DNA from: Tsukamurella sp. 8F
GTDB taxonomy: Bacteria > Actinomycetota > Actinomycetes > Mycobacteriales > Mycobacteriaceae
Direction: 5' to 3'
Length of the DNA: 64,000 bases
Assembly: GCF_029167375.1 (NCBI RefSeq)
Contig: NZ_JARFTP010000012.1
Location: 1 to 64,000, forward strand
Shown here: in pieces, positions 3,720 through 18,031 of the stretch
Position numbering within the stretch: position 1 is the first letter of the stretch
Layout of the letters: each line of letters begins with the position of its first letter
Position numbers and translations under genes: made by a program
Notes under the pieces: model-generated
The model's input: only the letters and a program-made list of their open reading frames with translations
What the model was told of the DNA's origin: nothing
Databases searched by the model: none

Positions 3720-3839
3720 ACGCCCTCCTCCCAGCACCCCTGCACTGATTAGACGCGCCAGGTGCCGCTCCGGTTCCGCCGAATCCGGCACCCGGCTGGC
3801 AGTCCGGAATGCCGCGCGGCGCCGGTAGGGTATCGATCC

Positions 3840-4469
3840 ATGCAGACGACCGTCGTCGACCATCCGCTCGCCGCCGTGCGCCTGACGGCGCTTCGGGACC
3901 GGGGTTCGGACAACGCCACCTTCCGGGCCGCGCTCAAGGAACTGACCCAGATGCTCGTGTACGAGGCGATGCGTGGTGCCCGGGTCGACACGGTCGCCGT
4001 GGTGACTCCCCTGGAGACCACCGACGGCCACCGCCTCGCGGCCCCGCCGCTACTCGTGCCCGTGCTCCGCGCCGGCCTCGGCATGGTGGATCAGGCGCAT
4101 GCCATGATCCCGGAGTCGCAGGTCGGCTTCGTCGGGATGGGACGCAACGAGGAGACCCACATTCCCGAGCCGTACTTCGAGTCGCTGCCGGCCGATCTGT
4201 CGGACCGCCCCGTGTTCGTGCTCGACCCCATGCTCGCGACCGGCGGCTCGATGGTGCAGGCCCTGGAACTGCTGAACGATCGCGGCGCCACCGACGTCAC
4301 CGCCGTCTGCGTCGTCGCGGCACCGGAAGGTGTGGCGGCACTGGAGGAATCCGGCTATCCGGTGCGTTTGGTGACCGCCACCGTCGATCGGGAACTCGAC
4401 TCCAACGCCTATATCCTGCCCGGGCTCGGCGACGCGGGTGACCGGCAGTTCGGGCCGCGCTGGACCTGA
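3840..4469 (+). CDS. upp: Uracil phosphoribosyltransferase
   Basis: A 209-aa enzyme converting uracil and PRPP to UMP in pyrimidine salvage. The PRPP-binding loop is visible as [14 protein letters not shown], and the length is normal for bacterial Upp. The ATG at 3840 is used; the frame upstream continues open but has no family similarity. The gene stands next to purine and pentose-phosphate genes (deoD, pmmB lie beyond the inserted island), as in M. tuberculosis Rv3307-Rv3309. It converges on a membrane-protein gene only 10 bp away, with no clear terminator between. Confidence 0.95.
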
Positions 4470-4479
4470 ACGCTCCGAG

Positions 4480-5076
4480 CTACCGGGACCAGTACGCTAA
4501 CGCGGCCTCGGGATGTTGCACGCCGTCACGGGTCGTGATCAGCAGCCCGGCCGGTCCGACCGTGTAGACGGTGGCGTGGTCGCTGCCGCGCACGACGTAG
4601 CCCGCCGACGAGCGGCTCACCGCGGAGAGCGTGATCCCGTGGCCCGAGGCCGTTCGGTAGCCGCGGTAGTACAGCCCGCCCGGGCCGGAGCAGATGGCCA
4701 CCTGCGACGCGGAGGTCGACAGCAGGGCCTGCGCCTCGTCGATTCCTTGGCAGCGCGCGTCACCGGTCACGAAGCCTTGCCGGTCGGTGCCGGGCACGGT
4801 CGGCGCGTTCCCGCTGGTCGTCTGCACATTCCCCGTGGTCGTAGTCCGCGTGGTCACGGTCGCGGGCATCGGTGCCGCGGAGACGGTCACGGTCGTGCCG
4901 CCGACGGCGCTCACCGCGGCGGGTGCCGGGGTGGCCGAAGCCGCGGAGGACGAGCTGTGCCCGCCACGTGTCAGCAGCAGCGCTGCTGCGACGGCGCCCG
5001 CGAGGATGAGGAGTCCCACGATGACCGCGAGCACCACCACGGGGGTGTGGTTCGGCTGCCGGGGACCGTTCTCCAT
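4480..5076 (-). CDS. Single-pass membrane protein with Ser/Thr/Ala-rich stalk
   Basis: A 198-aa protein not recognised as a named family. Residues 1-12 are a short cytoplasmic tail and 13-36 a transmembrane helix. Residues 38-100 are rich in Ser, Thr, Ala and Pro, like a wall-spanning linker. Residues 100-198 form a small extracytoplasmic domain with two cysteines that could form a disulfide. The orientation N-in/C-out is inferred. Its first 12 codons and 5' flank are part of repeat A, which recurs in degraded form beside pmmB 11 kb away. In the ancestor this gene probably lay directly downstream of pmmB. Confidence 0.75.
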   Translation of the reverse strand: MENGPRQPNHTPVVVLAVIVGLLILAGAVAAALLLTRGGHSSSSAASATPAPAAVSAVGGTTVTVSAAPMPATVTTRTTTTGNVQTTSGNAPTVPGTDRQGFVTGDARCQGIDEAQALLSTSASQVAICSGPGGLYYRGYRTASGHGITLSAVSRSSAGYVVRGSDHATVYTVGPAGLLITTRDGVQHPEAALAYWSR

Positions 5077-5118
5077 GGCCGTGAATGTACCGGGTCACGA
5101 CATCGGACGTCACACGCC
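5042..5118 (+). repeat. Flanking direct repeat, copy A (left end of amide island)
   Basis: This 77-bp segment matches 16188-16259 in the same orientation. The match starts with GGGGTGTGGTTCGGCT and ends near CACGACATC-GA-GTCAC, with a 5-bp gap between. I count roughly 60 identical positions in about 73. It covers codons 1-12 and the upstream region of the membrane-protein gene. The part right of 5110 corresponds to the 3' end of pmmB in the other copy. Confidence 0.7.
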
Positions 5119-5170
5119 GTCGACGAGGTGGAGTCGCGGATCCACGTCGTGGATTCGCGCGAGCAAGGCG

Positions 5171-5785
5171 TCAGCCGGCGGCAACGGGAACGGTCGGTAG
5201 CCGACCCTCGAGCGCCCATTCGAGCATCTGCGAGCCCGGTCCCACGGCGGCGAACAGTGTCGCCATCATGTCCAGCGCCGGCTGGTGCTGGGCTATCGGT
5301 GCGGACGTCGCGTCGGCGGCGACGTACATGTCGAAATCGCGCTGCTGCCCCGACCGCACCGTCGACTCCACGCACACGCTGGTGACGACCCCACCGACCA
5401 CCAGGCGACTGATTCCCCTGGCGCGCAGGACCACTTCCAGATCGGTGTACAGAAAGGCGTCGTAGCGGTTCTTGTCGACGATCGTGTCGCCGGGTTCGGG
5501 GGCCAGCTCGTCGATCACCGCGGCGTCCCAGCTTCCCCGCAGCAGTGCCGGCGGGTGCAGGGGCAGGCTGTCTGCGACCATGCGCGGCAGGTCCACCCGA
5601 TCGGCACGGTAGACGTGCCGCGTGTAGATCACCGGCACCGATCGTTCCCGTGCGGCGGCGATGAGGGCCACGTTCGCTGCGGTCACGGCCTCCATGTAGG
5701 GGAGCCCGCGCCCGGCGGAGGGCAGCGACCCCCGGGGGTGGACGAATCCGTTCTGCATGTCGATGATCAGGACGGCGGTGGTCAT
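5171..5785 (-). CDS. Isochorismatase-family cysteine hydrolase
   Basis: A 204-aa cytosolic alpha/beta hydrolase of the isochorismatase-like superfamily. The catalytic triad Asp9, Lys105 and Cys138 is visible (in IDMQNGF, DKNRYDAF and TSVCVEST), with the usual VVTSVCVES cis-peptide region. This is the triad of N-carbamoylsarcosine amidase, nicotinamidase and biuret hydrolase, which release ammonia from small amides or ureides. The ATG at 5785 overlaps the stop of the upstream amidase by 4 bp. It is the last gene of the island operon, so it probably performs a late hydrolytic step on the imported compound. The substrate cannot be read from sequence. Confidence 0.88.
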   Translation of the reverse strand: MTTAVLIIDMQNGFVHPRGSLPSAGRGLPYMEAVTAANVALIAAARERSVPVIYTRHVYRADRVDLPRMVADSLPLHPPALLRGSWDAAVIDELAPEPGDTIVDKNRYDAFLYTDLEVVLRARGISRLVVGGVVTSVCVESTVRSGQQRDFDMYVAADATSAPIAQHQPALDMMATLFAAVGPGSQMLEWALEGRLPTVPVAAG

Positions 5786-7206
5786 GATGCTCCTTCCCGG
5801 GAGAGATCGGGACCGGCTCGGTGCCAGTCGGTGGACTGCTGGAAGGCGTCTGCCGCGCGCAGCACGGTGGCCTCGTCGAACGGGCGGCCCGCGAGCTGCA
5901 TGGCCAGGGGGAGTCGGTCGGCCGTGAAGCCGATCGGCACGGACACGACGGGATTGCCCATCGGATCCCAGTAGGCCGTGTTGATCGAGTCGAACCACGA
6001 GAGCCCGATATCGAGTTCGTCGTAGGCGAGGGCGCCGGTATAGGCCGTGGCGGTGAGGATCAGATCGAGCCCCCGATCCGCGTAGAGGTTCGCGAGCTCC
6101 TGGTGTGCCACCCGCCGGACACGCTGTGCCTGAACGTAGTCCGCGGCACTGTCGGCCGTAGCACTCGGCAGCGACAGCCGCAGGGACGGCGAGTAGTCGG
6201 CGAGACGTCGCCGTGCGTCTCCGCGGTGATAGGCCAGCGTCTCACCGTTGTTGATGACGAACAGCGCCTCCGTCACCTCCCGATACCGCGGAAGGGTCAC
6301 CGGCACGGTCTCTGCTCCGCGGTTCTGCAGCACCTCGATCGCCCGGTCCAACGCGGGATCGAGCGCGGGGTCCACGTCCGCGGTGTCGCGCCCGCTCGTC
6401 AGGTCGACGCCGATGCGGAGTCCGGTGAGGTCGGCGGTGAGTGCGGTGGTGTAGTCGCTGGTGGGGGTGTCGATGGCGGTGTGGTCGCTGGGGTGGTGTC
6501 CGGCGAGGACGGTGAGCATGGTCGCGCAGTCGCGGGCGCTGCGGGCCATGGGGCCGATGTGGTCGAGGCTGTATCCGAGGGGGACGCAGCCGGATTTGGG
6601 TACCCGGCCGAAGGTGGGCATGAGTCCGGTGATTCCGCAGAATGCGGCGGGGATGCGGATACTGCCGCCCGTGTCGGTGCCGAGGCCGCCGAGGAACATC
6701 CCCGCCGCCACGCCCGAGCCGGTGCCGGAGCTGGAGCCGCCCGGCCAGTGCGAGAGGTTCCACGGGTTGCGCGGTAAGGGGAAGTCCCTTGCGGCGTCGG
6801 GAAGCCCTGACGCGAACTCCATGGTGGTCAGCTTGCCCAGGATGATCGCTCCGGCATCCCGCAGGCGTTGCACGACGACGGCGTCGCCGTGGCTCCATGC
6901 CGGGTCGAGGACCAGGCTCTGTGCGGTGGACGGCGCCTCCGAGGTGGTGATGATGTCTTTGATTCCGATCGGAATGCCGGCCAGTGCCCCCGGTTCGCGG
7001 CCGGCGGCGCGGTCGGCGTCCGCCTGTGCCGCCGCAGCCAGGGCCTCGTCCGTGAAGCGGATGATGAAGGCGCCCAACGTCTCATCGTGTCGATCGGCCA
7101 CATCTATGCAGTCCTGCACCAACTCCAGGCTGGTCAGGTGGCCGGCATGGAGTGCGGCCGCGGCATCGGTCAGGGTCGATACCTGTCGCGTGCCCGCCGT
7201 CGTCAT
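5782..7206 (-). CDS. Amidase-signature family hydrolase (second of tandem pair)
   Basis: A 474-aa amidase-signature enzyme with the Ser-cisSer-Lys triad Lys83, Ser158 and Ser182 (in IPIGIKDI, GGSSSGTGSG and DTGGSIRIPAA). The family hydrolyses amide bonds in compounds from indoleacetamide to carboxybiuret. It is a paralogue of the next amidase gene (7203-8630), whose stop codon overlaps its start by 4 bp. Two internal stretches are almost identical in DNA to that paralogue while the flanking sequence is clearly diverged, pointing to gene conversion. Specificity is unknown. The ATG at 7206 fits the alignment with the paralogue. Confidence 0.9.
   Translation of the reverse strand: MTTAGTRQVSTLTDAAAALHAGHLTSLELVQDCIDVADRHDETLGAFIIRFTDEALAAAAQADADRAAGREPGALAGIPIGIKDIITTSEAPSTAQSLVLDPAWSHGDAVVVQRLRDAGAIILGKLTTMEFASGLPDAARDFPLPRNPWNLSHWPGGSSSGTGSGVAAGMFLGGLGTDTGGSIRIPAAFCGITGLMPTFGRVPKSGCVPLGYSLDHIGPMARSARDCATMLTVLAGHHPSDHTAIDTPTSDYTTALTADLTGLRIGVDLTSGRDTADVDPALDPALDRAIEVLQNRGAETVPVTLPRYREVTEALFVINNGETLAYHRGDARRRLADYSPSLRLSLPSATADSAADYVQAQRVRRVAHQELANLYADRGLDLILTATAYTGALAYDELDIGLSWFDSINTAYWDPMGNPVVSVPIGFTADRLPLAMQLAGRPFDEATVLRAADAFQQSTDWHRAGPDLSREGAS
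6441..6668 (-). repeat. Gene-conversion tract 1, copy in second amidase
   Basis: Matches 7880-8107 at a constant offset of 1439 bp with about 3-4 mismatches in 228 bp. It encodes the segment after the catalytic Ser182. Sequence on both sides diverges to ordinary paralogue level. Confidence 0.8.
6812..7024 (-). repeat. Gene-conversion tract 2, copy in second amidase
   Basis: Matches 8251-8463 at the same 1439-bp offset with 2 mismatches seen in 213 bp, including synonymous positions. It encodes the region around catalytic Lys83. Confidence 0.8.
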
Positions 7207-8630
7207 GCCGGGACCTCTGCGGCCGTCGGCGTCATCGCGGGAGACCGCAGATGCCAGTCGGAGGCGGCCTGATAGGCGTCGCCGACGCGCAGGACGGTGG
7301 CCTCTTCGAAGGGGCGACCCGCCAGCTGCATCGACATCGGTAGGCCGGCGTCGTTGAACCCGATCGGTACGCAGAGCACCGGGTTGCCGGTGGTGTCCCA
7401 GTAGCCGGTGTGCATGGCGCCGGTGGTTCCCGAGGCCAGTGCTTCGACGAACCCGTCCATGTCCGCGTAGGAGGGCGCGGCGGTCGAGCTGGTGGGGGTT
7501 GCTATCACGTCGACGTCGGCGTAGAGCTCGGCCAGCGCCTGCTGCCCGACCCGGCGACACCGCTGCGCCTGCACGTAATCGGCTCCGCCGTAGAAGATCC
7601 CCGATCCGACGGTGGTGCGTGTGGCGGCGAAGTAGTCGCCCCATCGAGTCTGCAGATCGCCGCGGTGATAGGCCAGCGCCTCACCGAACATGATGACCAG
7701 ATCGGCGATGGTCATCTCCTCGTAGAACGGCAGCTCGATGTCTACTATCCGGGCTCCGCGAGCGCGCAGCACATCCATCGCGTCGTCCCACAACCGCGGC
7801 AGCGCCGGATCCTCGTCCTCGAGCGCATATCGGGCCAGGCGGTCGACGCCGATGCGGAGGCCGGTGAGGTCGCCGGTGAGTGTGGTGGTGTAGTCGCTGG
7901 TGGGGGTGTCGATGGCGGTGTGGTCGCTGGGGTGGTGTCCGGCGAGGACGGTGAGCATGGTCGCGCAGTCGCGGGCGCTGCGGGCCATGGGTCCGATGTG
8001 GTCGAGGCTGTATCCGAGGGGGACGCAACCGGATTTGGGTACCCGGCCGAAGGTGGGCATGAGTCCGGTGATTCCGCAGAATGCGGCGGGGATGCGGATA
8101 CTGCCGCCGGTATCGGTGCCCAGCGCCCCCAGCACCGCTCCTGCGGCCACGGCGCTGCCGGAGCCGGAGCTGGAACCCCCGGTCCAGTGCTGCAGATTCC
8201 ACGGATTACGCGGAATGGGAAAGGGTTTCGTGGCGTCCGGCGAGCCGATCGCGAACTCCATGGTGGTGAGCTTGCCCAGGATGATCGCTCCGGCATCCCG
8301 CAGGCGTTGCACGACGACGGCGTCGCCGTGGCTCCATGCCGGGTCGAGGACCAGGCTCTGTGCGGTGGACGGCGCCTCCGAGGTGGTGATGATGTCCTTG
8401 ATTCCGATCGGAATGCCGGCCAGTGCCCCCGGTTCGCGGCCGGCGGCGCGGTCGGCGTCCGCCGCGGCTGCAGCCGCGAGGGCCTGATCGGTGAACCGGG
8501 ACAGGAACATCCCGGTCTGCTCGTCGTGGGCATCTGCCACCGCTATCGCGGCGGTGACGAGTTCGGTACTTGTGGTGGTGCCCGCCGCCAGCGCGGCGGC
8601 GGCATCGGACAGGGTGGTCGCTATCGACAC
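7203..8630 (-). CDS. Amidase-signature family hydrolase (first of tandem pair)
   Basis: A 475-aa amidase-signature enzyme with triad Lys78, Ser153 and Ser177 (in IPIGIKDI, GGSSSGSGSA and DTGGSIRIPAA). These positions are one less than the recalled K79/S154/S178 of GatA, so the domain is full length. It is not GatA: no gatB is nearby and the gene lies in a catabolic operon. A 59-aa AtzG/DUF4089-like gene lies just upstream, the arrangement seen for the 1-carboxybiuret hydrolase AtzE with AtzG. It overlaps its paralogue by ATGA. Imported amide or ureide is the likely substrate class; the exact compound is unknown. Confidence 0.9.
   Translation of the reverse strand: MSIATTLSDAAAALAAGTTTSTELVTAAIAVADAHDEQTGMFLSRFTDQALAAAAAADADRAAGREPGALAGIPIGIKDIITTSEAPSTAQSLVLDPAWSHGDAVVVQRLRDAGAIILGKLTTMEFAIGSPDATKPFPIPRNPWNLQHWTGGSSSGSGSAVAAGAVLGALGTDTGGSIRIPAAFCGITGLMPTFGRVPKSGCVPLGYSLDHIGPMARSARDCATMLTVLAGHHPSDHTAIDTPTSDYTTTLTGDLTGLRIGVDRLARYALEDEDPALPRLWDDAMDVLRARGARIVDIELPFYEEMTIADLVIMFGEALAYHRGDLQTRWGDYFAATRTTVGSGIFYGGADYVQAQRCRRVGQQALAELYADVDVIATPTSSTAAPSYADMDGFVEALASGTTGAMHTGYWDTTGNPVLCVPIGFNDAGLPMSMQLAGRPFEEATVLRVGDAYQAASDWHLRSPAMTPTAAEVPA
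7880..8107 (-). repeat. Gene-conversion tract 1, copy in first amidase
   Basis: Partner of 6441-6668 (offset 1439 bp, about 3-4 differences). Both copies also share the same synonymous codon choices. Confidence 0.8.
8251..8463 (-). repeat. Gene-conversion tract 2, copy in first amidase
   Basis: Partner of 6812-7024 (offset 1439 bp, 2 differences seen). The 140 bp between tracts 1 and 2 is visibly more diverged. Confidence 0.8.
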
Positions 8631-8647
8631 GAGTGAGACCTTTCTCT

Positions 8648-8827
8648 TCAGGGGCGGGGATCGAAGGTGACGGCGGGTTCGGCGTACCGGACCCCGGGCA
8701 TCGCGTACAGTCGCTCCACGCGGGCGCGGCTCGGCGCGTATGCGGCGACAAGCAGGTCCACCTCCGCGGAAGGTGGTGTCAGCCCGTGCATCTGCAGCAG
8801 TGCCTCTACGATCGTTCGATCATCCAT
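8648..8827 (-). CDS. AtzG/DUF4089-like small amidase partner
   Basis: A 59-aa reading frame starting at the ATG at 8827, directly behind a good AAGGAGT ribosome-binding site. The protein opens MDDRTIVEALLQMHGL, continues with a helix rich in Ala, Arg and Val, and ends in a Pro-rich tail (EPAVTFDPRP). Size, two-helix character and a tail with spaced prolines before Phe-x-Pro match the DUF4089/AtzG family as I remember it. AtzG is GatC-like and binds the amidase AtzE. The next gene downstream (18 bp) is an amidase, which supports a subunit role. Family membership is by eye only. If correct, the first amidase is the likeliest partner. Confidence 0.72.
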   Translation of the reverse strand: MDDRTIVEALLQMHGLTPPSAEVDLLVAAYAPSRARVERLYAMPGVRYAEPAVTFDPRP

Positions 8828-8881
8828 GTTGTGACTCCTTCTCTTGCAATGTGATACGGATCTTCGGAGGTCGGATCGAGG

Positions 8882-10468
8882 TCAGTCCACGCTGACGGGT
8901 ACGAGGTCCAGGAACCAGGACTTGGGTTGGACGAAGCCGTGCACGTCGGGAGCGAGCACGCGGGGATTGCGGTCGTTGAACGCGGTCAGCCAGGCGGCGT
9001 CTGCGGTCACCTGAGCCGAGATCTGTCCGTACAGGCTGTTGCGGGTGGCCGGATCGATCGTCGCCGTGGACCGCGTGATCAGGTCGTCGACCCGAGGGTT
9101 GGAGTAGTGGCCGATGTTCGTCGGCGATCCGGTGCCGAAGAGCAACCCCCAGAAGGCCTCCTGGATGAAGGTCAGTGAGATGTTGATGGCGTCGGCATGG
9201 TCCGGGATACTGCCGCCGGAGAATGCCGTAAGCATCGCCGCCCATTCGATCGGCTTCAGCCGCACCCGCACACCCACCGCTGCCAGATCGGCCTGCATCG
9301 CCTGATTCATCGAGCCCGGTTGCATATTGCCCGAGCCGCTCGTCGGGTATGACACCGTCATATCGAAGCCTCGGGGGTATCCCGCCTGCGCCAGCAACTG
9401 CCTGGCCTTCTCGGGGTCGTATCCGTAGAGATCGTCGTCTGGTCGATAGGCGAGGCTGGCGCGGGGCGCCACCTGCTCGGCGGTGTCGGCGGTCCCGGCC
9501 AGGAGGTGGGTGGCGATCGCGCGTCGATCGATGGCGTAGTTCAACGCCCGGCGCACTCGGACGTCGTCGAGTGGCTTCTTGGTGACGTCGAAGATCCACG
9601 GCCACACGTGGTCGTATGCGTTGGTGAGAACCTGGTAGCCGTGGCCCCGTAGCCAGTCGATGTCGTCGGGGTTGGGAGCCTCCGCCCAGTCCACACTGCC
9701 CGAGCGCACCGCGGCCAGCCGGGCCGATGCGTCGGGGACGGGCAGCAGGACGAGCTCCCGCAGCTTCGGTGCCCCGCGCCAGTAGTGCGGATTGGCCCGC
9801 AGCGTGAGCCGCTGCCCGCGCTGCATCGACGAGTAGACGAACGGCCCGGTTCCCACCGGGTGGGCGCCGAACTCTGAACCCCACCGGGTGACGGCCGCGG
9901 GGCTCGCCATATAGACGAACACCATGTCCTCCGGGAGATGTGAGTAGACGCCCTTGGTCTCGATCGCAACGGTGCGATCATCGATCCTGCGATACGACCG
10001 AACGCCGGACAGCGATAGGGCTGCGCGTCCCGATGCCGCCGTGTTGAACTGTGGCGCTGCAGGATTCATGTAGCGATCGAGGTTGAAGATCACGGCGTCG
10101 GCGTCGAAGGGGGTGCCGTCCGTGAAGGTGACCCCCGGCCGCAGGTGGAAGATCCATTCGGTCCCGGTGGGCGACAGCTCCCACGACTGTGCCAACGCCG
10201 GCACCACGCGAGGGGTGCTGGTGGACTGGTCGAGGTCGTACCGGGTGAGACCGTCGTACAGCTGATTGCCGACGAACCGGTTCCCCTCGTATCCCTGATT
10301 GCCGGCGAGGGTGGTGTCCAGTGACGGGATGTCGGACGCGGTCATCGCGATCCTCAGGGTCCCCGGATGATTCGATCGCTCCGGCGCGCCCTTCTCGCCG
10401 CAGGAGGCCAGCATGCCGCACACGACGATCAGGGCCAGGACGGCACGTGGCCGGATGATCCGCATCAT
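8882..10468 (-). CDS. ABC transporter substrate-binding lipoprotein (family 5)
   Basis: A 528-aa extracytoplasmic solute-binding protein of the DppA/OppA type (SBP_bac_5). Residues 1-22 are a lipoprotein signal peptide with lipobox LASC and lipidated Cys23. The mature part shows family landmarks such as LRPGVTFTDGTPFDADAV and GTGPFVY. The ATG at 10468 follows an AAGGAG ribosome-binding site. Family 5 proteins bind oligopeptides but also nickel, opines and other small N-containing solutes. With amidases in the same operon, an amide or ureide ligand is plausible but not demonstrated. Confidence 0.93.
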   Translation of the reverse strand: MMRIIRPRAVLALIVVCGMLASCGEKGAPERSNHPGTLRIAMTASDIPSLDTTLAGNQGYEGNRFVGNQLYDGLTRYDLDQSTSTPRVVPALAQSWELSPTGTEWIFHLRPGVTFTDGTPFDADAVIFNLDRYMNPAAPQFNTAASGRAALSLSGVRSYRRIDDRTVAIETKGVYSHLPEDMVFVYMASPAAVTRWGSEFGAHPVGTGPFVYSSMQRGQRLTLRANPHYWRGAPKLRELVLLPVPDASARLAAVRSGSVDWAEAPNPDDIDWLRGHGYQVLTNAYDHVWPWIFDVTKKPLDDVRVRRALNYAIDRRAIATHLLAGTADTAEQVAPRASLAYRPDDDLYGYDPEKARQLLAQAGYPRGFDMTVSYPTSGSGNMQPGSMNQAMQADLAAVGVRVRLKPIEWAAMLTAFSGGSIPDHADAINISLTFIQEAFWGLLFGTGSPTNIGHYSNPRVDDLITRSTATIDPATRNSLYGQISAQVTADAAWLTAFNDRNPRVLAPDVHGFVQPKSWFLDLVPVSVD

Positions 10469-10538
10469 CGGACGCTCCTTTCGGGCAGGGGGTATCGACG
10501 CAACGCGCCGGTGGGCGCGATGCGCGGGTGTCGTTCGC

Positions 10539-11495
10539 TCAGCCGGCGGCGGGAGCCATCAGCGCTTGGGGGTCGAGGTGTACGCAGGCGGCCAGGTGGC
10601 CTCTGTCACGGACCTGCAGATCGGGCCATTCGCGGGTGCAGGCTTCGACAGTGACGGGGCAGCGGGTGCGGAAGCCGCACCCGCTGGGCGGATTGCTGGG
10701 GCTGGGCAGTTCGCCGTCGAGCACGACGCGCTCGCGGCCACGGCCCGGTGTGGACGACAGCAGTGCCGCCGTGTAGGGATGCCGAGGCCCGCGCCACAGC
10801 TCGTCCGCCGAGGCCTGCTCCACTACCCGCCCGAGGTACATGACGGCCACACGATCGGAGATGTGCTGCACCACAGCGAGATCGTGACTGATGAACAGGT
10901 AGGCGATCCCGAGATCCGATTGCAGCCGGGTGAGTAGGTTGAGCACCTGGGCCTGCACGCTCTTGTCCAGCGCGCTGACGGCCTCGTCGCAGATCACCAC
11001 ATCCGGGTCACTACACAGTGCACGGGCTATGGCTGCGCGCTGGAGCTGACCGCCGGACATCTGGTGCGGATACCGCTGCGCATAGGACGGATCGAGCCCG
11101 ACGCGATCGAGCAGCTCGGCAACGCGTGTGGTCCGCGCGCGCCGCGGGAAGCCGTGCGCGCGTAGATGGAAGGCGAGGGAGTCGAACACCGTCAGGCGGG
11201 GATTGAGGCTGGTCTGCGGGTTCTGCGGAACCACCTGTACGCGTCGGCGGAACTCCTTGCGTTCGCGCCCCCGAAGGCGGGCGATGTCGCGCCCTTCGAA
11301 GAACACGCGTCCGGCGTCCGGCTGTAGCAGACGCAGCATCATCTTCACTGTCGTCGACTTGCCGCAGCCGGATTCGCCGACGATGCCGAGCGTCTCGCCG
11401 GCGCGCAACGCGAGGTCGACGTTGCTGACCGCCCGTACGCCGCCGCCGAACGTCTTGCTGATGCCTTGTGCCTCCATCAGGTATTCGGTACTCAT
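10539..11495 (-). CDS. ABC transporter ATPase, OppF/DppF type
   Basis: A 318-aa nucleotide-binding protein energising the island's importer. The Walker A motif GESGCGKST is at 40-48 and the ABC signature begins SGGQ at about 147. Walker B VVICDEAVSALD follows, and the C-terminal oligopeptide-type extension carries a Cys cluster (CGFRTRC...C). It overlaps the OppD-type gene by 4 bp and probably forms a heterodimer with it. The ATG at 11495 is chosen for that coupling. Confidence 0.93.
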   Translation of the reverse strand: MSTEYLMEAQGISKTFGGGVRAVSNVDLALRAGETLGIVGESGCGKSTTVKMMLRLLQPDAGRVFFEGRDIARLRGRERKEFRRRVQVVPQNPQTSLNPRLTVFDSLAFHLRAHGFPRRARTTRVAELLDRVGLDPSYAQRYPHQMSGGQLQRAAIARALCSDPDVVICDEAVSALDKSVQAQVLNLLTRLQSDLGIAYLFISHDLAVVQHISDRVAVMYLGRVVEQASADELWRGPRHPYTAALLSSTPGRGRERVVLDGELPSPSNPPSGCGFRTRCPVTVEACTREWPDLQVRDRGHLAACVHLDPQALMAPAAG

Positions 11496-12481
11496 GCCGG
11501 CTGCCTCTCGCGTTCGCCGTTCACGGGCGCCACGACCGGGCAGGCCGTCCAGCGGCCTCCTGTATCCACCAGCTCCGGCTCGACATGCCTGCAGGAGTGG
11601 ACGGCGTGATCGCAGCGTGGCGCGAAAGCGCAGCCGGCGGAGTGCTCCCCGGTGAGCGGCGGACGGCCCACGATCACCGGAAGCCGGCCGCGAGGCACGC
11701 CCGGAGTGGGGAGCGAGGACAGCAGGCCTGCGGTGTAGGGATGTTGAGGATGCGTGAGGATGTCGCGCGCAGAACCGGATTCGGCGATACGACCGGCATA
11801 CATCACCGCCACCATCCCGTCCAGTTCCTCGGCCACCCCGACATCGTGCGTGACCATCAACAGGGCCATGCCCATCCGGCGCTGCAGCGAGGTGAACAGG
11901 GACAGCACCTGCGCCTGGACTGTGACGTCCAGGGCGGTCGTCGGCTCGTCGGCGATCAGCACGTCGGGCTCGCCGGCGACGGCGATGGCGATCACCGCCC
12001 GCTGCCGCATTCCGCCCGACAGCTGATGCGGTCGGCTGGCCAGCACCTGTGGTACGTCCGGGATCCCCACCAGCGTCAGCAGCTCCTCGCAGCGCGCGCG
12101 GGTGCCGGCACGAGTGCGGGTCAGACGGTGGGCGCGGAGCACCTCGGCCAGTTGTGAACCGATGCTGCGCAGGGGATCCAGCGCCGCCGTCGGGTCCTGG
12201 GGGACGAGCCCTAAGCGGCGTCCGCGAAGAGTCCGCATCCGCTTCTCCGGCATCGTGAGCAGGTCCTCCCCGTCGAGGGTGACCGAACCCGTGCACGCGG
12301 CAGCCGACCCGTACAGGCGCAGGACGCTGCGGGCGGTGACGGACTTTCCGCTGCCGCTCTCGCCCAACAGGACCAGTGTCTCGCCGGCGTCGACGGAGAG
12401 GCTGACGCCTCGGACGGCACGAATCGGGGAGTGGCCGCGAAACGTGGTCGTGAGGTCGGATATCTGTAGGCGTGGTGTCAT
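11492..12481 (-). CDS. ABC transporter ATPase, OppD/DppD type
   Basis: A 329-aa ATP-binding subunit. Walker A GESGSGKSV is at 40-48, the signature LSGGMRQR at about 154, Walker B VLIADEPTTALD follows, and the C-terminal oligopeptide-type extension contains CAFAPRC. It is translationally coupled at both ends (ATGA overlaps with the upstream permease and the downstream ATPase), so the transporter genes are expressed in fixed order B-C-D-F followed by the binding protein. Confidence 0.93.
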   Translation of the reverse strand: MTPRLQISDLTTTFRGHSPIRAVRGVSLSVDAGETLVLLGESGSGKSVTARSVLRLYGSAAACTGSVTLDGEDLLTMPEKRMRTLRGRRLGLVPQDPTAALDPLRSIGSQLAEVLRAHRLTRTRAGTRARCEELLTLVGIPDVPQVLASRPHQLSGGMRQRAVIAIAVAGEPDVLIADEPTTALDVTVQAQVLSLFTSLQRRMGMALLMVTHDVGVAEELDGMVAVMYAGRIAESGSARDILTHPQHPYTAGLLSSLPTPGVPRGRLPVIVGRPPLTGEHSAGCAFAPRCDHAVHSCRHVEPELVDTGGRWTACPVVAPVNGERERQPA

Positions 12482-13383
12482 CTGATCCTCCGGCGTACAT
12501 CGAGGGCATCGCTGAGAGCGTCGCCGAGCATGTTGAAGACGAACGAGGCGGCGAAGATGACGCACGCGGGGATCAGGGCCGCCGCTGGGTGCGAGAAGAG
12601 GTACTGCCGTTGGTCACCCACCATCTGGCCCCATTCCGGCTTCGGTGGCGCGACACCGAGCCCCAGAAACGACAGCCCGCCGGCGAAGACCAGGGCCAGG
12701 CCCACGAGGCTGGTGCAGTACACGAGCAGCGCGGGTGCGACGTTCGGCAGGACCTGGCGATAGGCGATCGCGATCCGCGAGGCCCCGCTGACCTGTGCGC
12801 TCTCCATGAAGTCCATCCCGGCCAGGCGCAGTGTCTCGGTCTCCGCGATCCTCGCGACCGGTGGGATCAATACGATCGACAGCGCGATGACCGTGCTGGT
12901 CGTGCCCGCACCGAGGGCGGTGGCTATGGCGATGGCCAGTAGCACCGCCGGGAACGCGTAGAACACGTCCAGGGTGCGCATGATGGCGGAATGGATTCCG
13001 CGACCGGACATCCCGGCGGCCATACCGAGTACGGTGCCGAGGATGCCCGCGATGATCACCGGCACCAGAGCCGCCGTCATGCTGGGCCGGGCCCCGGCGA
13101 CGAGCCGGTCGAGCACGTCGCGGCCCAGGCCGTCCGTCCCAAGGGGGTGGCCGCTGGCGCCGATCCCCTGCATGCGCTCGCTCAGCTGTCCGATCGTGGG
13201 ATCCGATACCAGGTAGGGCCCGACGATCCCGAGTGCTACCAGGGCCAGCCCGAGCGCTCCGTAGCCCCACAGAGCCACCGGCATCCGGCGCATCCAGATA
13301 CGCACGCGGGTGCGCGCGATGGACGCGCTCGTTGGAGCGGAATCGCGGGCGATCGTCCCTTCATCGGTGGCGATGCTGGTCAT
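12478..13383 (-). CDS. ABC transporter permease, OppC/DppC type
   Basis: A 301-aa integral membrane permease. A cytoplasmic N-terminus of about 38 residues precedes a first helix (39-60), then a periplasmic loop and a five-helix BPD_transp_1 core. The coupling loop, with Glu-Ser-Ala-x3-Gly near residue 200, contacts the ATPases. It overlaps the OppB-type gene by 4 bp. Confidence 0.92.
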   Translation of the reverse strand: MTSIATDEGTIARDSAPTSASIARTRVRIWMRRMPVALWGYGALGLALVALGIVGPYLVSDPTIGQLSERMQGIGASGHPLGTDGLGRDVLDRLVAGARPSMTAALVPVIIAGILGTVLGMAAGMSGRGIHSAIMRTLDVFYAFPAVLLAIAIATALGAGTTSTVIALSIVLIPPVARIAETETLRLAGMDFMESAQVSGASRIAIAYRQVLPNVAPALLVYCTSLVGLALVFAGGLSFLGLGVAPPKPEWGQMVGDQRQYLFSHPAAALIPACVIFAASFVFNMLGDALSDALDVRRRIR

Positions 13384-14324
13384 GATGTCCTCACTCGGGA
13401 ATCGATCATCGCCAGTGCCATGTCGACGACGATGTTGATGAGTACGAATGCGACCCCGCAGACGAGCACTCCCGCCTGGGTGACGGGGAGATCACGCGAG
13501 GAGATGGACTGGAACAGCAGCAGACCGATGCCGGGCCAGGCGAAGATGGTCTCGACGAAGACCACGCCGCCGAGCAGGTAGCCGATCTGCAGTCCGGTCA
13601 TGGTGATCAGCGCGGGCAGCGTGTTGTGCACGGCGTGCGCCGCTATCCGGGGGCCGGGTAGGCCGCGGGCCCGTAACGCCTCCACGAAGTCCATCGACAA
13701 CACCTCCAGCAGGGACGACCGGAAGGTGCGCGCTATCACCCCGGCCGGCACCAGGGCGGCGGTCAGGGCGGGCAGGAGGCCGTGCCACATCAGGTCGATG
13801 AATCCGCCGCCGTCGAAGCCGTGCATCCCCGATACCGGAAAGAACCCTGTCGCCAAGGCGAGATAGACGATGAGGATCAGCGCGACCGAGTACTGCGGGG
13901 CCGACAGAGACACGGAACTGAGTGCCGACGTGACGCGCCCCGGCAGGCTCCGCGGATACCGCGCGGCGACCCCGCCGAGCAGCAGCCCCAGTGCGACGGC
14001 CAGGACCGTCGCATAGAGCGCCAGGATCAGCGTGTTACCGAAGGCGTCGGCCACCAGCCCGAAGACCGGCCGCTGCTGCGAGATGCTGATGCCGAAGTCG
14101 CCGCGCAGCGCATGTGTGAGCCAGGCCCAGAACTGGATGGGTAGCGCGCGGTCGAGCCCGAGCCGCTGGGTGAGCGCGGCCTTGGTCTGGTCGGAAGCGC
14201 CGGCGCCGGCCAGGAGTGCCACCGGGTCGCCGGGGATCAGCGCGATGGTGAGGAAGACGACCACGGCCACACCCAGCAGGATGGGGATCGCGAAGCCGAG
14301 ACGGCGACATGCGAAGACCAGCAT
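13380..14324 (-). CDS. ABC transporter permease, OppB/DppB type
   Basis: A 314-aa membrane permease. The first helix is at about 9-31. The family-typical segment LIPGDPVALLAG follows, then a long external loop and a BPD_transp_1 core with the coupling loop EALRARGLPGPRI. It lies 3 bp downstream of a GntR regulator gene on the same strand, so regulator and transporter share a transcript. Confidence 0.92.
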   Translation of the reverse strand: MLVFACRRLGFAIPILLGVAVVVFLTIALIPGDPVALLAGAGASDQTKAALTQRLGLDRALPIQFWAWLTHALRGDFGISISQQRPVFGLVADAFGNTLILALYATVLAVALGLLLGGVAARYPRSLPGRVTSALSSVSLSAPQYSVALILIVYLALATGFFPVSGMHGFDGGGFIDLMWHGLLPALTAALVPAGVIARTFRSSLLEVLSMDFVEALRARGLPGPRIAAHAVHNTLPALITMTGLQIGYLLGGVVFVETIFAWPGIGLLLFQSISSRDLPVTQAGVLVCGVAFVLINIVVDMALAMIDSRVRTS

Positions 14325-14327
14325 GTC

Positions 14328-15170
14328 TCACCTCGACCGATCGCCGCGCGGATCGCGGGAGGCACGGGAGGACACAGCGATCCGGTCGCCGCGATTGCGG
14401 AGCAGCGCGTAGTCGAACGGGACACCGGCGGGATCGAGGATCAGTTGCTCGACGCCGAGTACCGGCTGCCCCGCGGCGATTCCGAGGGTGTCGGCCAGGA
14501 CGTCGTCGGCAGGGAGGCTCTCGATCCGCAGGTCGGTTCCGCCGACTCGTAGGCCGGCGTCCGCCAGCAGCGTCCACCAGTCGCTCCGGAACGGGGTGCG
14601 CGCCACGGCCTCCGCCTCCGGGAAGCGGATGTAGTTCGTGTAGATGCCGATGGCGGAGCCGTGGAGACGACCGATGTACTCGAGCAGCAGGCAGTCGTCG
14701 CCCGTGTCCGCGCGTAGCCGGGCGGCCACGAGCCGGGGCATGGGGATGCGTTCGCAGGCGACCACCTGATTCGTGATACCCCGATCCGAGAGCCCCTCCG
14801 CGCCATGGAGTTCGGTGATTCGGTAGGCGAATCGCTCGGCCACCGCGAACGTTCCGGTTCCCGGGATGCGTTCGATGACGCCTTCGTTCCGCAGCAGCGC
14901 CAGTGCCTCCCGGACCACCGAGCGCGAGACGTGATGCGTCCCCATGAGCTCGGGTTCCGGCGGGATTCCACCGTCGCCCGTGCGGCCGGCCAGTATGTCG
15001 CTGCGCAACACGTCCCGGAGCCAGCGCGCGTGATCGTGCGAGGAACCGCGAGAAGAGCCGGCCGCCCGCTGCGACGAGGTGGGCTCCTGCCTGCGTGCCG
15101 GGGTGGCCGTGCGCCGGGGGACGCGGGCGCCGCACGGTGGGCGCCGGTGTCGCTGATCTGCAACGTTCAT
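14328..15170 (-). CDS. GntR-family regulator with UTRA domain (1)
   Basis: A 280-aa transcription factor if started at the ATG at 15170; an alternative ATG at 15206 adds 12 residues. The winged helix-turn-helix is in the first third (SRSVVREALALLRNEGVIER). A HutC/UTRA-type effector domain occupies the C-terminal half. The N-terminal 40 residues are Arg/Pro-rich and may not be translated. It is a paralogue of the regulator at 15278-16033: the two UTRA domains share TNY-R-P, a DW motif and a similar end. Likely ligand: the transported compound or a product of it. The start is uncertain. Confidence 0.85.
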   Translation of the reverse strand: MNVADQRHRRPPCGARVPRRTATPARRQEPTSSQRAAGSSRGSSHDHARWLRDVLRSDILAGRTGDGGIPPEPELMGTHHVSRSVVREALALLRNEGVIERIPGTGTFAVAERFAYRITELHGAEGLSDRGITNQVVACERIPMPRLVAARLRADTGDDCLLLEYIGRLHGSAIGIYTNYIRFPEAEAVARTPFRSDWWTLLADAGLRVGGTDLRIESLPADDVLADTLGIAAGQPVLGVEQLILDPAGVPFDYALLRNRGDRIAVSSRASRDPRGDRSR

Positions 15171-15277
15171 GTCCCCATGGTGCGAGGCCGTTGTTACCGC
15201 CGGCATCTGCGGAGTAACGCGATGGTTTCGCCGTCGATCGCCGGTGAAACTGCAGGTCAGGGCTTCGGCTGCGTCCG

Positions 15278-16033
15278 CTACGCCGGATCCGGCTCCAGTT
15301 CCGCCGGTGCACGCCGATAGCTGGAGGTATTCGCGAGGCGGTGCCCCGGGTTGCGGATGAACGCCACGTCGAACACCGCGCCCTCGGCGGTGCGGATGAC
15401 CTGCTCACCCAGCAACACCGGCTCGCCCTCCGCGACACCCAGCAGCCGCGCGTCGTGGGTGTCCGCCTGCGAGGCCTCGAACAGGAAGGTCGACTCGCCG
15501 ATATCGATGCCGGCGGACCGCAGCATCCGATACCAGTCGACGCCGAACATGTCGCGGCGCAACAGGCCCGCCTGGGGGTAGCGCGTGTAATTGGTCGCCA
15601 GGCCCAGCGGCGCCTCGTTCAGCATGGCGACGTAGTCCACCCGCAGGACGGTGTCACCAGGCTCCACGCCGAGGCGATGGGCGATCCCGGCGTCGGCGGA
15701 GGCATCCGCCCAGTCCAGGATCCGGGTGCGCATGGCTCCGTCGAATATGCCGGTGGGAGCCGGATCGGACACACCGTGCGATTCCTGCAGGGAGACTGTG
15801 ACCTGGCGGTGCGTAGCAATGGTGCCGATGCCGCGCAGCCGCACCACCAGGCCTTCCTGCTGCAATCGGGTGAGTACGTCGCGGACCGCCGCGCGCGAGA
15901 CCTGGAACTCGGCGCGCAGCTCCTCCTCGGTCGGCAGACGCCCGTCGGGGAAGCCGTCGGTGACGATCTGCGTGCGCAGCGCGTCGTGCACGCGGCGTGA
16001 TACGAACGAGCGGGGCTGAGGCGGGTCGGCCAT
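15278..16033 (-). CDS. GntR-family regulator with UTRA domain (2)
   Basis: A 251-aa regulator. The winged helix is at about 9-75 (SRAAVRDVLTRLQQEGLVVR), followed by a UTRA effector domain at about 95-240. The ATG at 16033 is chosen; another at 16051 would add six residues, and neither has a clear ribosome-binding site. It is the first gene of the minus-strand island operon, about 110 bp upstream of the second GntR gene. Two paralogous regulators at the head of one operon could form heterodimers or respond to different intermediates (inference). Confidence 0.85.
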   Translation of the reverse strand: MADPPQPRSFVSRRVHDALRTQIVTDGFPDGRLPTEEELRAEFQVSRAAVRDVLTRLQQEGLVVRLRGIGTIATHRQVTVSLQESHGVSDPAPTGIFDGAMRTRILDWADASADAGIAHRLGVEPGDTVLRVDYVAMLNEAPLGLATNYTRYPQAGLLRRDMFGVDWYRMLRSAGIDIGESTFLFEASQADTHDARLLGVAEGEPVLLGEQVIRTAEGAVFDVAFIRNPGHRLANTSSYRRAPAELEPDPA

Positions 16034-16187
16034 GCATTCAGCATTCAGCATCGTGCGAGATCCGCAAGCGGGAGCGCCCGGTCGGCTGGACCGGCAGCCG
16101 CCGCTCGGGGTGCTGCCGCGCCCCACCTGTCGGGGAGCCGCGGTGTCAGAGGCCGGTGGGCCGGAACAGCGGGGCCCGGTCCAGCAC

Positions 16188-16259
16188 GGGGTGTGGTTCG
16201 GCTAGTGGCGACCGTTCCGCAACGCCGTGACGGGGCACGACATCCGATGTCACCACGCC
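16188..16259 (+). repeat. Flanking direct repeat, copy B (right end of amide island)
   Basis: Degenerate second copy of 5042-5118 in direct orientation. It contains the pmmB stop codon (16250-16252) at its right end. To its left is a remnant of the start of the membrane-protein gene: the ATG is lost and an in-frame TAG is present. This suggests the ancestral order pmmB then membrane protein, split by the island. Confidence 0.7.
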
Positions 16260-18031
16260 CGCACCGCCTCGGTCACGGAGTCCAGGCGTTTCTGCGCGGA
16301 ACTCCTTGCCTCTGAGACGGAGCCGTGCTCGACCACCTCGAGGTAGAACTTGGCCTTGGGCTCGGTGCCCGACGGGCGGACGGTGATTCGCACACCGTCG
16401 CCGGTGAACACCAGGGCGTCTGCGGCGGGCCGAGCCGTGAGCAGATCCGCGACGGCGAGCGGGACACCGGCCGCCGACGGCGGCGGGTCGGCCCGCAGCC
16501 GGGCCATCAGGCTCGCGATCTGAGCCACGTCGGTGACGCGCCGCGACACCTGGGCGGTGAGATGCACGCCGTGCCGGGCGTAGAGATCGTCCAGCGCATC
16601 GAACACGGTGCGTCCCTGGGACTTCAATGCCGCCGCGTATGCCGCTGCGACGACCGCCGCGGAGATGCCGTCCTTGTCCCGCACCGCGTCCGGATCCACC
16701 GCGAGGCCCAGCGCCTCTTCGTACGCGAACACGAGCCCATCACCCGCGCGCATCAGGTTCTTGAAGCCGGTGAGCGTTCGCGCACACCGCGCGCCGCGCC
16801 CGGCCGCGATTGCGCCCAGCAGCTCGGAGCTCACGATCGTGGTGGCCACCAGTGGATCCCGCGCGTCGGAGGATGCCAGCACGTGATCCCCTAGGAGCGC
16901 GCCCGCTTGATCGCCGGTGAGCATGCTCCACCCGCCCAGGTCGCGGGTATCGCTCGCCCGCCAGGTCGTGCGGGCGCCGATGGCACACCGATCGGCATCG
17001 GGGTCGAGTGCGATGGCGATGTCGGCGTCCACCCGCTCCGCAAGCGCCAGCAGCAGGTCCGTCGCGCCGGGTTCCTCCGGGTTGGGGAACGATACCGTCG
17101 GGAAGGCACCGTCGGGTGCGAACTGCTCGTCCACGAGGTGTACATCGGTGAAACCGCTGCGCTGCAACGCCTCGACGGCGGGGGCGCCGCCGACGCCGTG
17201 CATAGGCGTCAGTGCGATCCGTAGGTCGCGCGGCCCGTCCCCGGCCCGCGACGCTGCGCGATCCAGATACAGGTCCGCCAGCGCGAGTGCTCGTTCATCC
17301 GACACCACGGGAGTCCGCGAGATCGCGGAAGCCGGGGGCGCAGAGGCGATCAGCGCCTCGATCTCGCGGTCCGCCGGCGCGGTCAGCTGCGGCCCACCCG
17401 ACACGTACACCTTGTATCCGTTGTCGGCAGGTGGGTTGTGCGAGGCCGTGATCTGGATACCCGCGGCGGCGTCGAAATGCCGTGTCGCGAACGCGACGTA
17501 CGGCGTCGGTGCCGGATCCGGCAGGGCTATCACCGAGAAACCCTGCGCTGCCAAGACCTCGGTGGCCGCCGCGAAGAACTCCTCCGAACCGTGCCGCGCA
17601 TCCCGGCCGACCACCACTGCCGAACCACCCAGGCATCTTGCCGAGAGCCACGAACCGACCGCCCAGGTCGCCCGCGTCACTGTCGCCACGTTCATCCCGG
17701 CGGGTCCGCCGCGGACCGGGCCACGCAGGCCGGCTGTACCGAAAGTCAGTGGGGTGGAGAATCTCTCGACGATATCATCGGCGGACAGAGCGGCTACCTC
17801 GGCGCGCGTAACAGGGTCCGGGTCACCATCGATCCAGGCGCGCACGTCCTCCGCGGCGACGTTCGTTCCGCTCCCGGCGCCGGTTACGTTCGGCCCGCTC
17901 GCTCCGCTCCCGGCGCCGGTGACGTTCGGCCCGCTCGCTCCGCTCCCGGCGCCGGTGACGTTCGGCCCGCTCGCTCCGCTCCCGGCGCCGGTGACGTTCG
18001 GCCCGCTCGCTCCGCTCCCGGCGCCGGTCAT
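16250..18031 (-). CDS. pmmB: Phosphomannomutase/phosphoglucomutase with N-terminal tandem repeat
   Basis: A 593-aa alpha-D-phosphohexomutase interconverting hexose 1- and 6-phosphates; family members also act on pentose phosphates. The phosphoserine loop [13 protein letters not shown] and the metal loop DPDADRC are intact, and the C-terminal phosphate loop RPSGTEPK is present. Residues 2-57 are four copies of a 12-residue unit ([12 protein letters not shown]) plus a partial one. Without them the protein is about 535 residues, close to the recalled length of M. tuberculosis PmmB (Rv3308). The ATG at 18031 overlaps the deoD stop codon by ATGA. This supports translation of the repeat, though a start after it cannot be excluded. 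Confidence 0.92.
17861..18027 (-). repeat. 36-bp tandem repeat (4 units plus a partial) inside pmmB start
   Basis: Four 36-bp units run from 17883 to 18026, nearly identical, preceded by a fifth unit carrying an internal deletion (from 17861). Each unit contains CGCTCGCTCCGCTCCCGG. The unit length keeps the pmmB frame open, so copy-number change would lengthen or shorten the protein by 12 residues without breaking it. Confidence 0.9.

Follow-up and report, generated by a model that had tools for sequence, protein, structure and literature searches.

How does a complete operon come to lie between two neighboring genes and leave both of them whole? The question is raised by a locus of Tsukamurella sp. 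8F, which we examined in the first 64,000 nucleotides of contig NZ_JARFTP010000012.1 (hereafter the window, to which all coordinates refer). The original prediction described an 11-kb catabolic island bracketed by an imperfect direct repeat, and proposed that pmmB and a membrane-protein gene had once been adjacent and that the block had entered between them with duplication of its target.

The block itself agrees with that description. It spans 5119–16180, about 11.06 kb, and consists of genes for regulators, an importer, amidases, and a hydrolase. On its pmmB side, it is bordered by pmmB (16250–18031, minus strand), a member of the phosphoglucomutase/phosphomannomutase family, and on the other side by the membrane-protein gene (4480–5076, minus strand; 198 aa, no Pfam match), which is convergent with upp (3762–4469, plus strand), encoding uracil phosphoribosyltransferase (UPRTase, E = 1.8e-60). 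The 5′ end of the pmmB open reading frame (ORF) contains a tandem repeat (17860–18028), and its true start may lie further downstream, as the pmmB match does not begin until residues 48–58 in 10 of the 15 other genus genomes. At locus L169, a Ser/Thr protein kinase (971–2920) has a C-terminal part similar to the membrane protein, and many second membrane-protein matches in other genus genomes likewise fall within long open frames; these similarities suggest an extracellular domain common to the membrane protein and such proteins.

The direct repeat was placed by the original prediction at 5042–5118 and 16188–16259, and a global alignment of these segments gave 60 identities, 11 mismatches, and 7 gap columns. 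The pair could be lengthened by local alignment to 5034–5118 (copy A) and 16181–16259 (copy B), where 66 of 86 columns are identical (77%, score 71); the copies differ in the remaining 20 columns. The match is better than expected for random GC-rich DNA, as none of 4,960 random pairs of 200-base stretches of the window reached a score of 71, the best scoring 51. When window positions 5000–5180 were searched against the whole genome (4.68 Mb in 70 contigs), copy B was the first match after the query itself, with E = 7.9e-10, and no further match was found under E = 0.06 that could represent a third copy of the junction. Compared with itself, the 64-kb window yielded three repeats on the same strand with E ≤ 1e-4: the pair described here, the tandem amidases, and the repeat at the 5′ end of the pmmB ORF.

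The contents of the two copies tell what was duplicated. Copy A, which is intact, holds the start of the membrane-protein gene (5076) and its 5′ flank as predicted, although the coding part, put at 12 codons, extends to the first 14 codons and one base. Copy B, on the minus strand like copy A, contains the last seven coding bases and the stop codon (16250–16252) of pmmB, the flank, and a remnant of the membrane-protein gene start that is broken in the way foreseen, with TTG replacing ATG and codon 7 being an in-frame TAG. Seven comparisons of the flanks (50–400 bases) found no similarity that stood out beyond the edges of the repeat, the best score being reached by 148 of 2,000 random pairs. 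The duplication was therefore confined to the 79- to 85-base junction. This piece spans the last codons of pmmB, the gap, and the next gene up to codon 15, and thus neither neighbor is broken: pmmB keeps its own 3′ end, and the membrane-protein gene retains both its start and the region upstream of it. Both copies have the palindrome GACATC-N-GATGTC at their pmmB end (5099–5111 in copy A, with one mismatch; 16239–16251 in copy B, perfect), which could be an operator, a recombination core, or a product of chance. Scans of the two copies with promoter and terminator consensus sequences gave no match, and we therefore do not assert that the block is driven by copy B.

If the block is an insertion, relatives should have the two genes side by side, and this is what we observed. 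In 13 of the 15 other Tsukamurella genomes, no more than 50 bases separated the matches to pmmB and the membrane protein. In the 14th (G012), the membrane-protein match covered only residues 90–197, and the pmmB–upp interval of 556 bases fits that gene alone; with this genome included, the membrane-protein gene comes immediately after pmmB in 14 of 15. In the remaining genome (G011; L168, 1562–4686), whose pmmB is 75% identical to that of the window, the membrane-protein gene is replaced by other genes, with two DUF1254/DUF1214 proteins and an Arr-type protein encoded between pmmB and upp. The gene order ECH, PNP, pmmB, membrane protein, upp, and NlpC gene is common to eight Tsukamurella loci, and in four genomes from other genera of the family (G023, G025, G027, and G031), the matched parts of pmmB and the membrane protein lie 26–266 bases apart. 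The adjacency in relatives identifies the arrangement of the window as the derived state. The relatives are diverged, the PmmB proteins of the genus genomes searched being 68–75% identical to that of the window, and the ancestral junction is consequently not alignable to copies A and B at the DNA level. When copy A was used as a DNA query against the 15 genus genomes, it gave three short matches, none at a pmmB junction, the junction DNA of the relatives being too diverged. No block-free relative with both copies of the repeat was seen, among relatives whose junction DNA is too diverged to match copy A.

We then placed the insertion in the context of the pmmB–upp interval in general. Among the best 80 loci around pmmB, the spacing between pmmB and the convergent upp was measurable in 77. 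It was at most 173 bases in 37 loci, 549–589 bases in eight Tsukamurella, 0.8–2.3 kb in 29, and 3.5–5.3 kb in three; in the window, it is 11.8 kb. The original prediction had cited the neighboring upp and pmmB of M. tuberculosis (Rv3309c and Rv3308) as consistent with insertion; among the loci measured, such closeness is seen in the 37 with the shortest spacing. In 16 of the 32 intervals above 0.8 kb, we looked for a second copy of the end of pmmB, and no repeat stood out: the score in the window was reached by 0 of 200 shuffles, and the lowest count among the other intervals was 9 of 200 (L086). With at least 9 of 200 shuffles reaching the score in each of the 16 intervals, a common mechanism of insertion at this site is unsupported. 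The interval often takes up genes, yet the repeat of the pmmB end is seen only in the window. It appears as a place where these bacteria tolerate additional genes.

All genes assigned within the block are on the minus strand, and presumably form a single transcription unit. In the direction of transcription, they are two GntR/UTRA (HutC-type) regulators (15278–16033, with the start chosen by eye, and 14328–15206, with the start uncertain); the ABC permeases DppB-like (13380–14324) and DppC-like (12478–13383); the ABC ATPases DppD-like (11492–12481) and DppF-like (10539–11495); a solute-binding protein of family 5 (SBP_bac_5; 8882–10468); an ORF of 59 aa (8648–8827), AtzG/GatC-like by size and position only; an AtzE/GatA-like amidase below the curated cut-offs (amidase 1; 7203–8630); its tandem paralogue of the amidase signature family (amidase 2; 5782–7182); and a cysteine hydrolase of the isochorismatase fold, RutB/BiuH-like (5171–5785). 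Just past the last gene, a 12-bp inverted repeat with a 1-nt spacer (5135–5159, minus strand) is a possible end of transcription, at which no T run was found. The two amidases are 70% identical in protein overall, and their DNA is 94% identical over 300 bases (6402–6701 and 7841–8140); such a stretch in otherwise diverged paralogues suggests gene conversion between them.

None of the enzymes reached the curated cut-offs. Against AtzE cut-offs of 461 and 425.75 bits, amidase 1 scored 271.5 and 261.3 bits and amidase 2 scored 264.2 and 252.9 bits. Among solved structures, the nearest to amidase 1 is a GatA subunit (4wj3), and it further resembles 6c62, a structure deposited under the name biuret hydrolase that we take to be the Pseudomonas AtzE. 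The hydrolase reached 100.5 and 104 bits against cut-offs of 370 and 377.95 bits for BiuH and RutB, and is related to the solved biuret hydrolase 6xjm and to RutB 8bkd. The 59-aa ORF is kept between the binding protein and the amidase in two relatives (L164 and L165), with identities of 58% in G669 and 41% in G718. Searches of Pfam, NCBIfam, and PDB sequences gave it no AtzG or GatC match and no other significant one, and with no such model or structure matching, a role as an AtzG-like partner is a possible lead only. AtzD, AtzH, and AtzF were not recognized within the block. From these assignments, we predict a cargo for the import and deamidation of a nitrogen-rich amide or ureide, controlled by the two GntR regulators, and expect the amide- or ureide-rich nitrogen source to be hydrolyzed stepwise after uptake.

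The distribution of these genes points outside the genus. We judged presence and absence in the genus from the binding protein and amidase 1, scoring at most three candidates per genome in the family-wide search with the binding protein. None of the 15 other Tsukamurella genomes matched the binding protein at E ≤ 1e-80; amidases of the same broad family are present in all 15, their identity to amidase 1 being at most 40%, as against 66% in G669. Across 401 genomes of the family, the binding protein had six other matches with a best identity of 40%, and the 394 sampled genomes of the class gave two from another family, with 61% and 55% identity; a search of 35 genomes in that other family returned the same two. 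On plasmids, 28 records matched at E ≤ 1e-80, the best being two linear plasmids of Streptomycetaceae (58.5% and 53%), and DNA of the whole block gave only partial plasmid matches, covering 1–5% of the query in the 20 rows listed out of 270 records. The cluster in G669 comprises DppC (partial, at a contig end), DppD, DppF, the binding protein, and an amidase, with 61–73% identity and a small ORF between the last two. That in G718 comprises GntR (33–34%), DppB-C-D-F, two weakly similar amidases, the binding protein, a small ORF, and an amidase (58%). In a tree of 11 binding proteins, that of the window stood apart from four of the six rows of its family. It shared an unresolved fork with the plasmid pair, G669 and G718, and family rows L153 and L154, and the tree thus leaves the donor unsettled.

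The codon usage of the block is host-like (absolute z ≤ 0.45 for 10 genes against 35 host ORFs), in a test that is weak because the reference ORFs were chosen mechanically by length and some, with low third-position GC, are perhaps not genes. With such codon usage, it is the distribution by itself that argues for a foreign origin, composition neither supporting nor excluding it. The third-position GC of homologues elsewhere is 0.93–0.955 in five of eight and 0.79–0.90 in the other three, and that of three in-frame block genes is 0.84–0.88, which allows, and does not prove, adaptation of the block to the composition of the host.

The adjacency in relatives and the repeat in the window together support the proposal that the block entered between former neighbors and duplicated its target, from which we infer a single-copy ancestor. 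We estimate a probability of about 0.78 that a regulated amide/ureide operon entered the pmmB/membrane-protein junction in this Tsukamurella lineage, duplicating 79–85 bases. The repeat probably arose in the same event as the entry of the block. The event appears to be old, as the original prediction had it; copies that are only 77% identical imply either an older event or different sources for the two copies.

The known transposons duplicate 2–14 bases, and a transposon with inverted ends is ruled out here, as the block has no terminal inverted repeats beyond random expectation (score reached by 22.7% of 2,000 random pairs). We found no transposase or recombinase domain in the scanned ORFs of the block; a Pfam scan of the plus-strand and remaining ORFs gave only a sub-threshold match to Antimicrobial_6 in a shadow ORF. 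The most likely route would begin with a widely staggered break at the pmmB/membrane-protein junction. The captured DNA would be joined there by Ku-dependent end-joining, and the filling-in of the staggered ends would duplicate the junction of about 80 bases. A harmless outcome could then survive, the duplicated stretch being just enough to keep both genes whole. The genome encodes Ku, which makes end-joining possible and no more.

One alternative is that a donor molecule, circular or linear, brought along a related junction and was joined by a single crossover or by homology-facilitated illegitimate recombination, the 23% difference between the copies then partly separating two source strains. 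The 20 differing columns agree with this, as does the host-like codon usage, which would be expected of DNA that came through a related Tsukamurella. Homologous recombination across 80 bases at 77% identity is inefficient, however, and as the binding protein is absent at E ≤ 1e-80 from the 15 genus genomes, no related donor was seen. We regard this origin as unlikely.

A site-specific element has somewhat different evidence on its side. A tyrosine or serine recombinase could have acted at the 3′ end of pmmB, with the two copies as attL and attR and the recombinase gene later lost. The palindrome overlaps or adjoins the pmmB stop in both copies, and an island of Streptomyces is reported to use as its integration site a palindrome located where a protein gene ends, on the 3′ side (PMC4057263). 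The genome also has eight matches of tyrosine-integrase type (Phage_integrase) and four of resolvase type, all of them elsewhere: none is on this contig. Further, the block consists of nearly nothing but catabolic genes, the genome has the junction sequence only twice, and a recombinase working at the end of pmmB is at odds with the lack of a standout repeat in the 16 intervals tested of the 32 above 0.8 kb. Taken together, these observations make such an element quite improbable.

Copy B resembles the beginning of a second, truncated membrane-protein gene. It could also be the trace of a larger duplication in tandem, covering the pmmB-end/membrane-protein region, with the block later replacing the body of one gene copy. 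This requires two events, and the block holds no other remnant of the membrane protein (best tblastn E = 0.23). With the similarity ending at the edges of the repeat, and nothing standing out past either of them, a larger duplication is unsupported, and we consider it very improbable. Chance or a common regulatory similarity of two GC-rich intergenic regions, for which one could cite that both lie upstream of same-strand genes, is rejected by the random pairs, the genome search, and the self-comparison of the window, and by a match that includes codons of one gene, leaving it a negligible probability.

With insertion into the junction as the preferred reading, the locus can be compared with known systems. 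Among the matches listed in our searches, which were too narrow to claim absence from print, no title on Tsukamurella islands or pan-genomes concerned this locus, and the match listed for such a gene cluster concerned nitrifiers. In cargo, the closest parallels in order are two Streptomycetaceae plasmids (CP108401.1 and NZ_CP109267.1), which share the DppB-C-D-F-binding protein order of the block and have a cysteine hydrolase adjacent; they differ from it in that the two plasmid stretches gave no amidase match at E ≤ 1e-15 and the nearby regulators are of the TetR and IclR types. In the G669 and G718 clusters, the binding protein, small ORF, and amidase are ordered as in the block. AtzG is described, in the accessible portion of the source, as the noncatalytic obligate partner of AtzE (PMC6219798). 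As far as the available parts of the papers on AtzG-AtzE and BiuH nitrogen catabolism go (PMC6219798, PMC5806882), the block is similar in having a small ORF before an amidase-signature enzyme, a hydrolase related to biuret hydrolase and RutB, and an ABC importer nearby. It differs in that its enzymes all score below the NCBIfam cut-offs and its small ORF lacks an AtzG/GatC match.

The proposed way of entry has a precedent among the routes by which chromosomes acquire genes. In Helicobacter pylori, such a pattern has been given the name insertion with long target duplication, frequently with restriction-modification genes, in papers that, in their accessible text, cite Nobusato, Uchiyama, Ohashi, and Kobayashi (2000, Gene 259:99) for it (PMC1643837, PMC3031569). 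As in those cases, to the extent that the accessible text describes them, the direct repeat of the target exceeds a transposon duplication and is evident by comparison with relatives. The uninterrupted target site is present in 14 of the 15 genus genomes, and the flanking repeat of 79–85 bases spans both genes, the junction having presumably been single-copy before the insertion. No restriction or methylase domain, a frequent cargo and not a required one, was found in the scanned ORFs of the block. The locus is thus a readable case of a complete operon placed between two genes with no recombinase in sight and no damage. It is tempting to see in it a general, recombinase-free route by which operons enter actinomycete chromosomes through end-joining of staggered breaks, with selection keeping the duplications that span a junction, but this is a tentative idea that we would sooner doubt than believe. 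Unlike the H. pylori cases, as the accessible text presents them, the cargo here is a catabolic operon, the host is an actinomycete, and the copies are only 77% identical; the pattern known there, often for restriction-modification genes, would thereby extend to metabolic cargo in an actinomycete.
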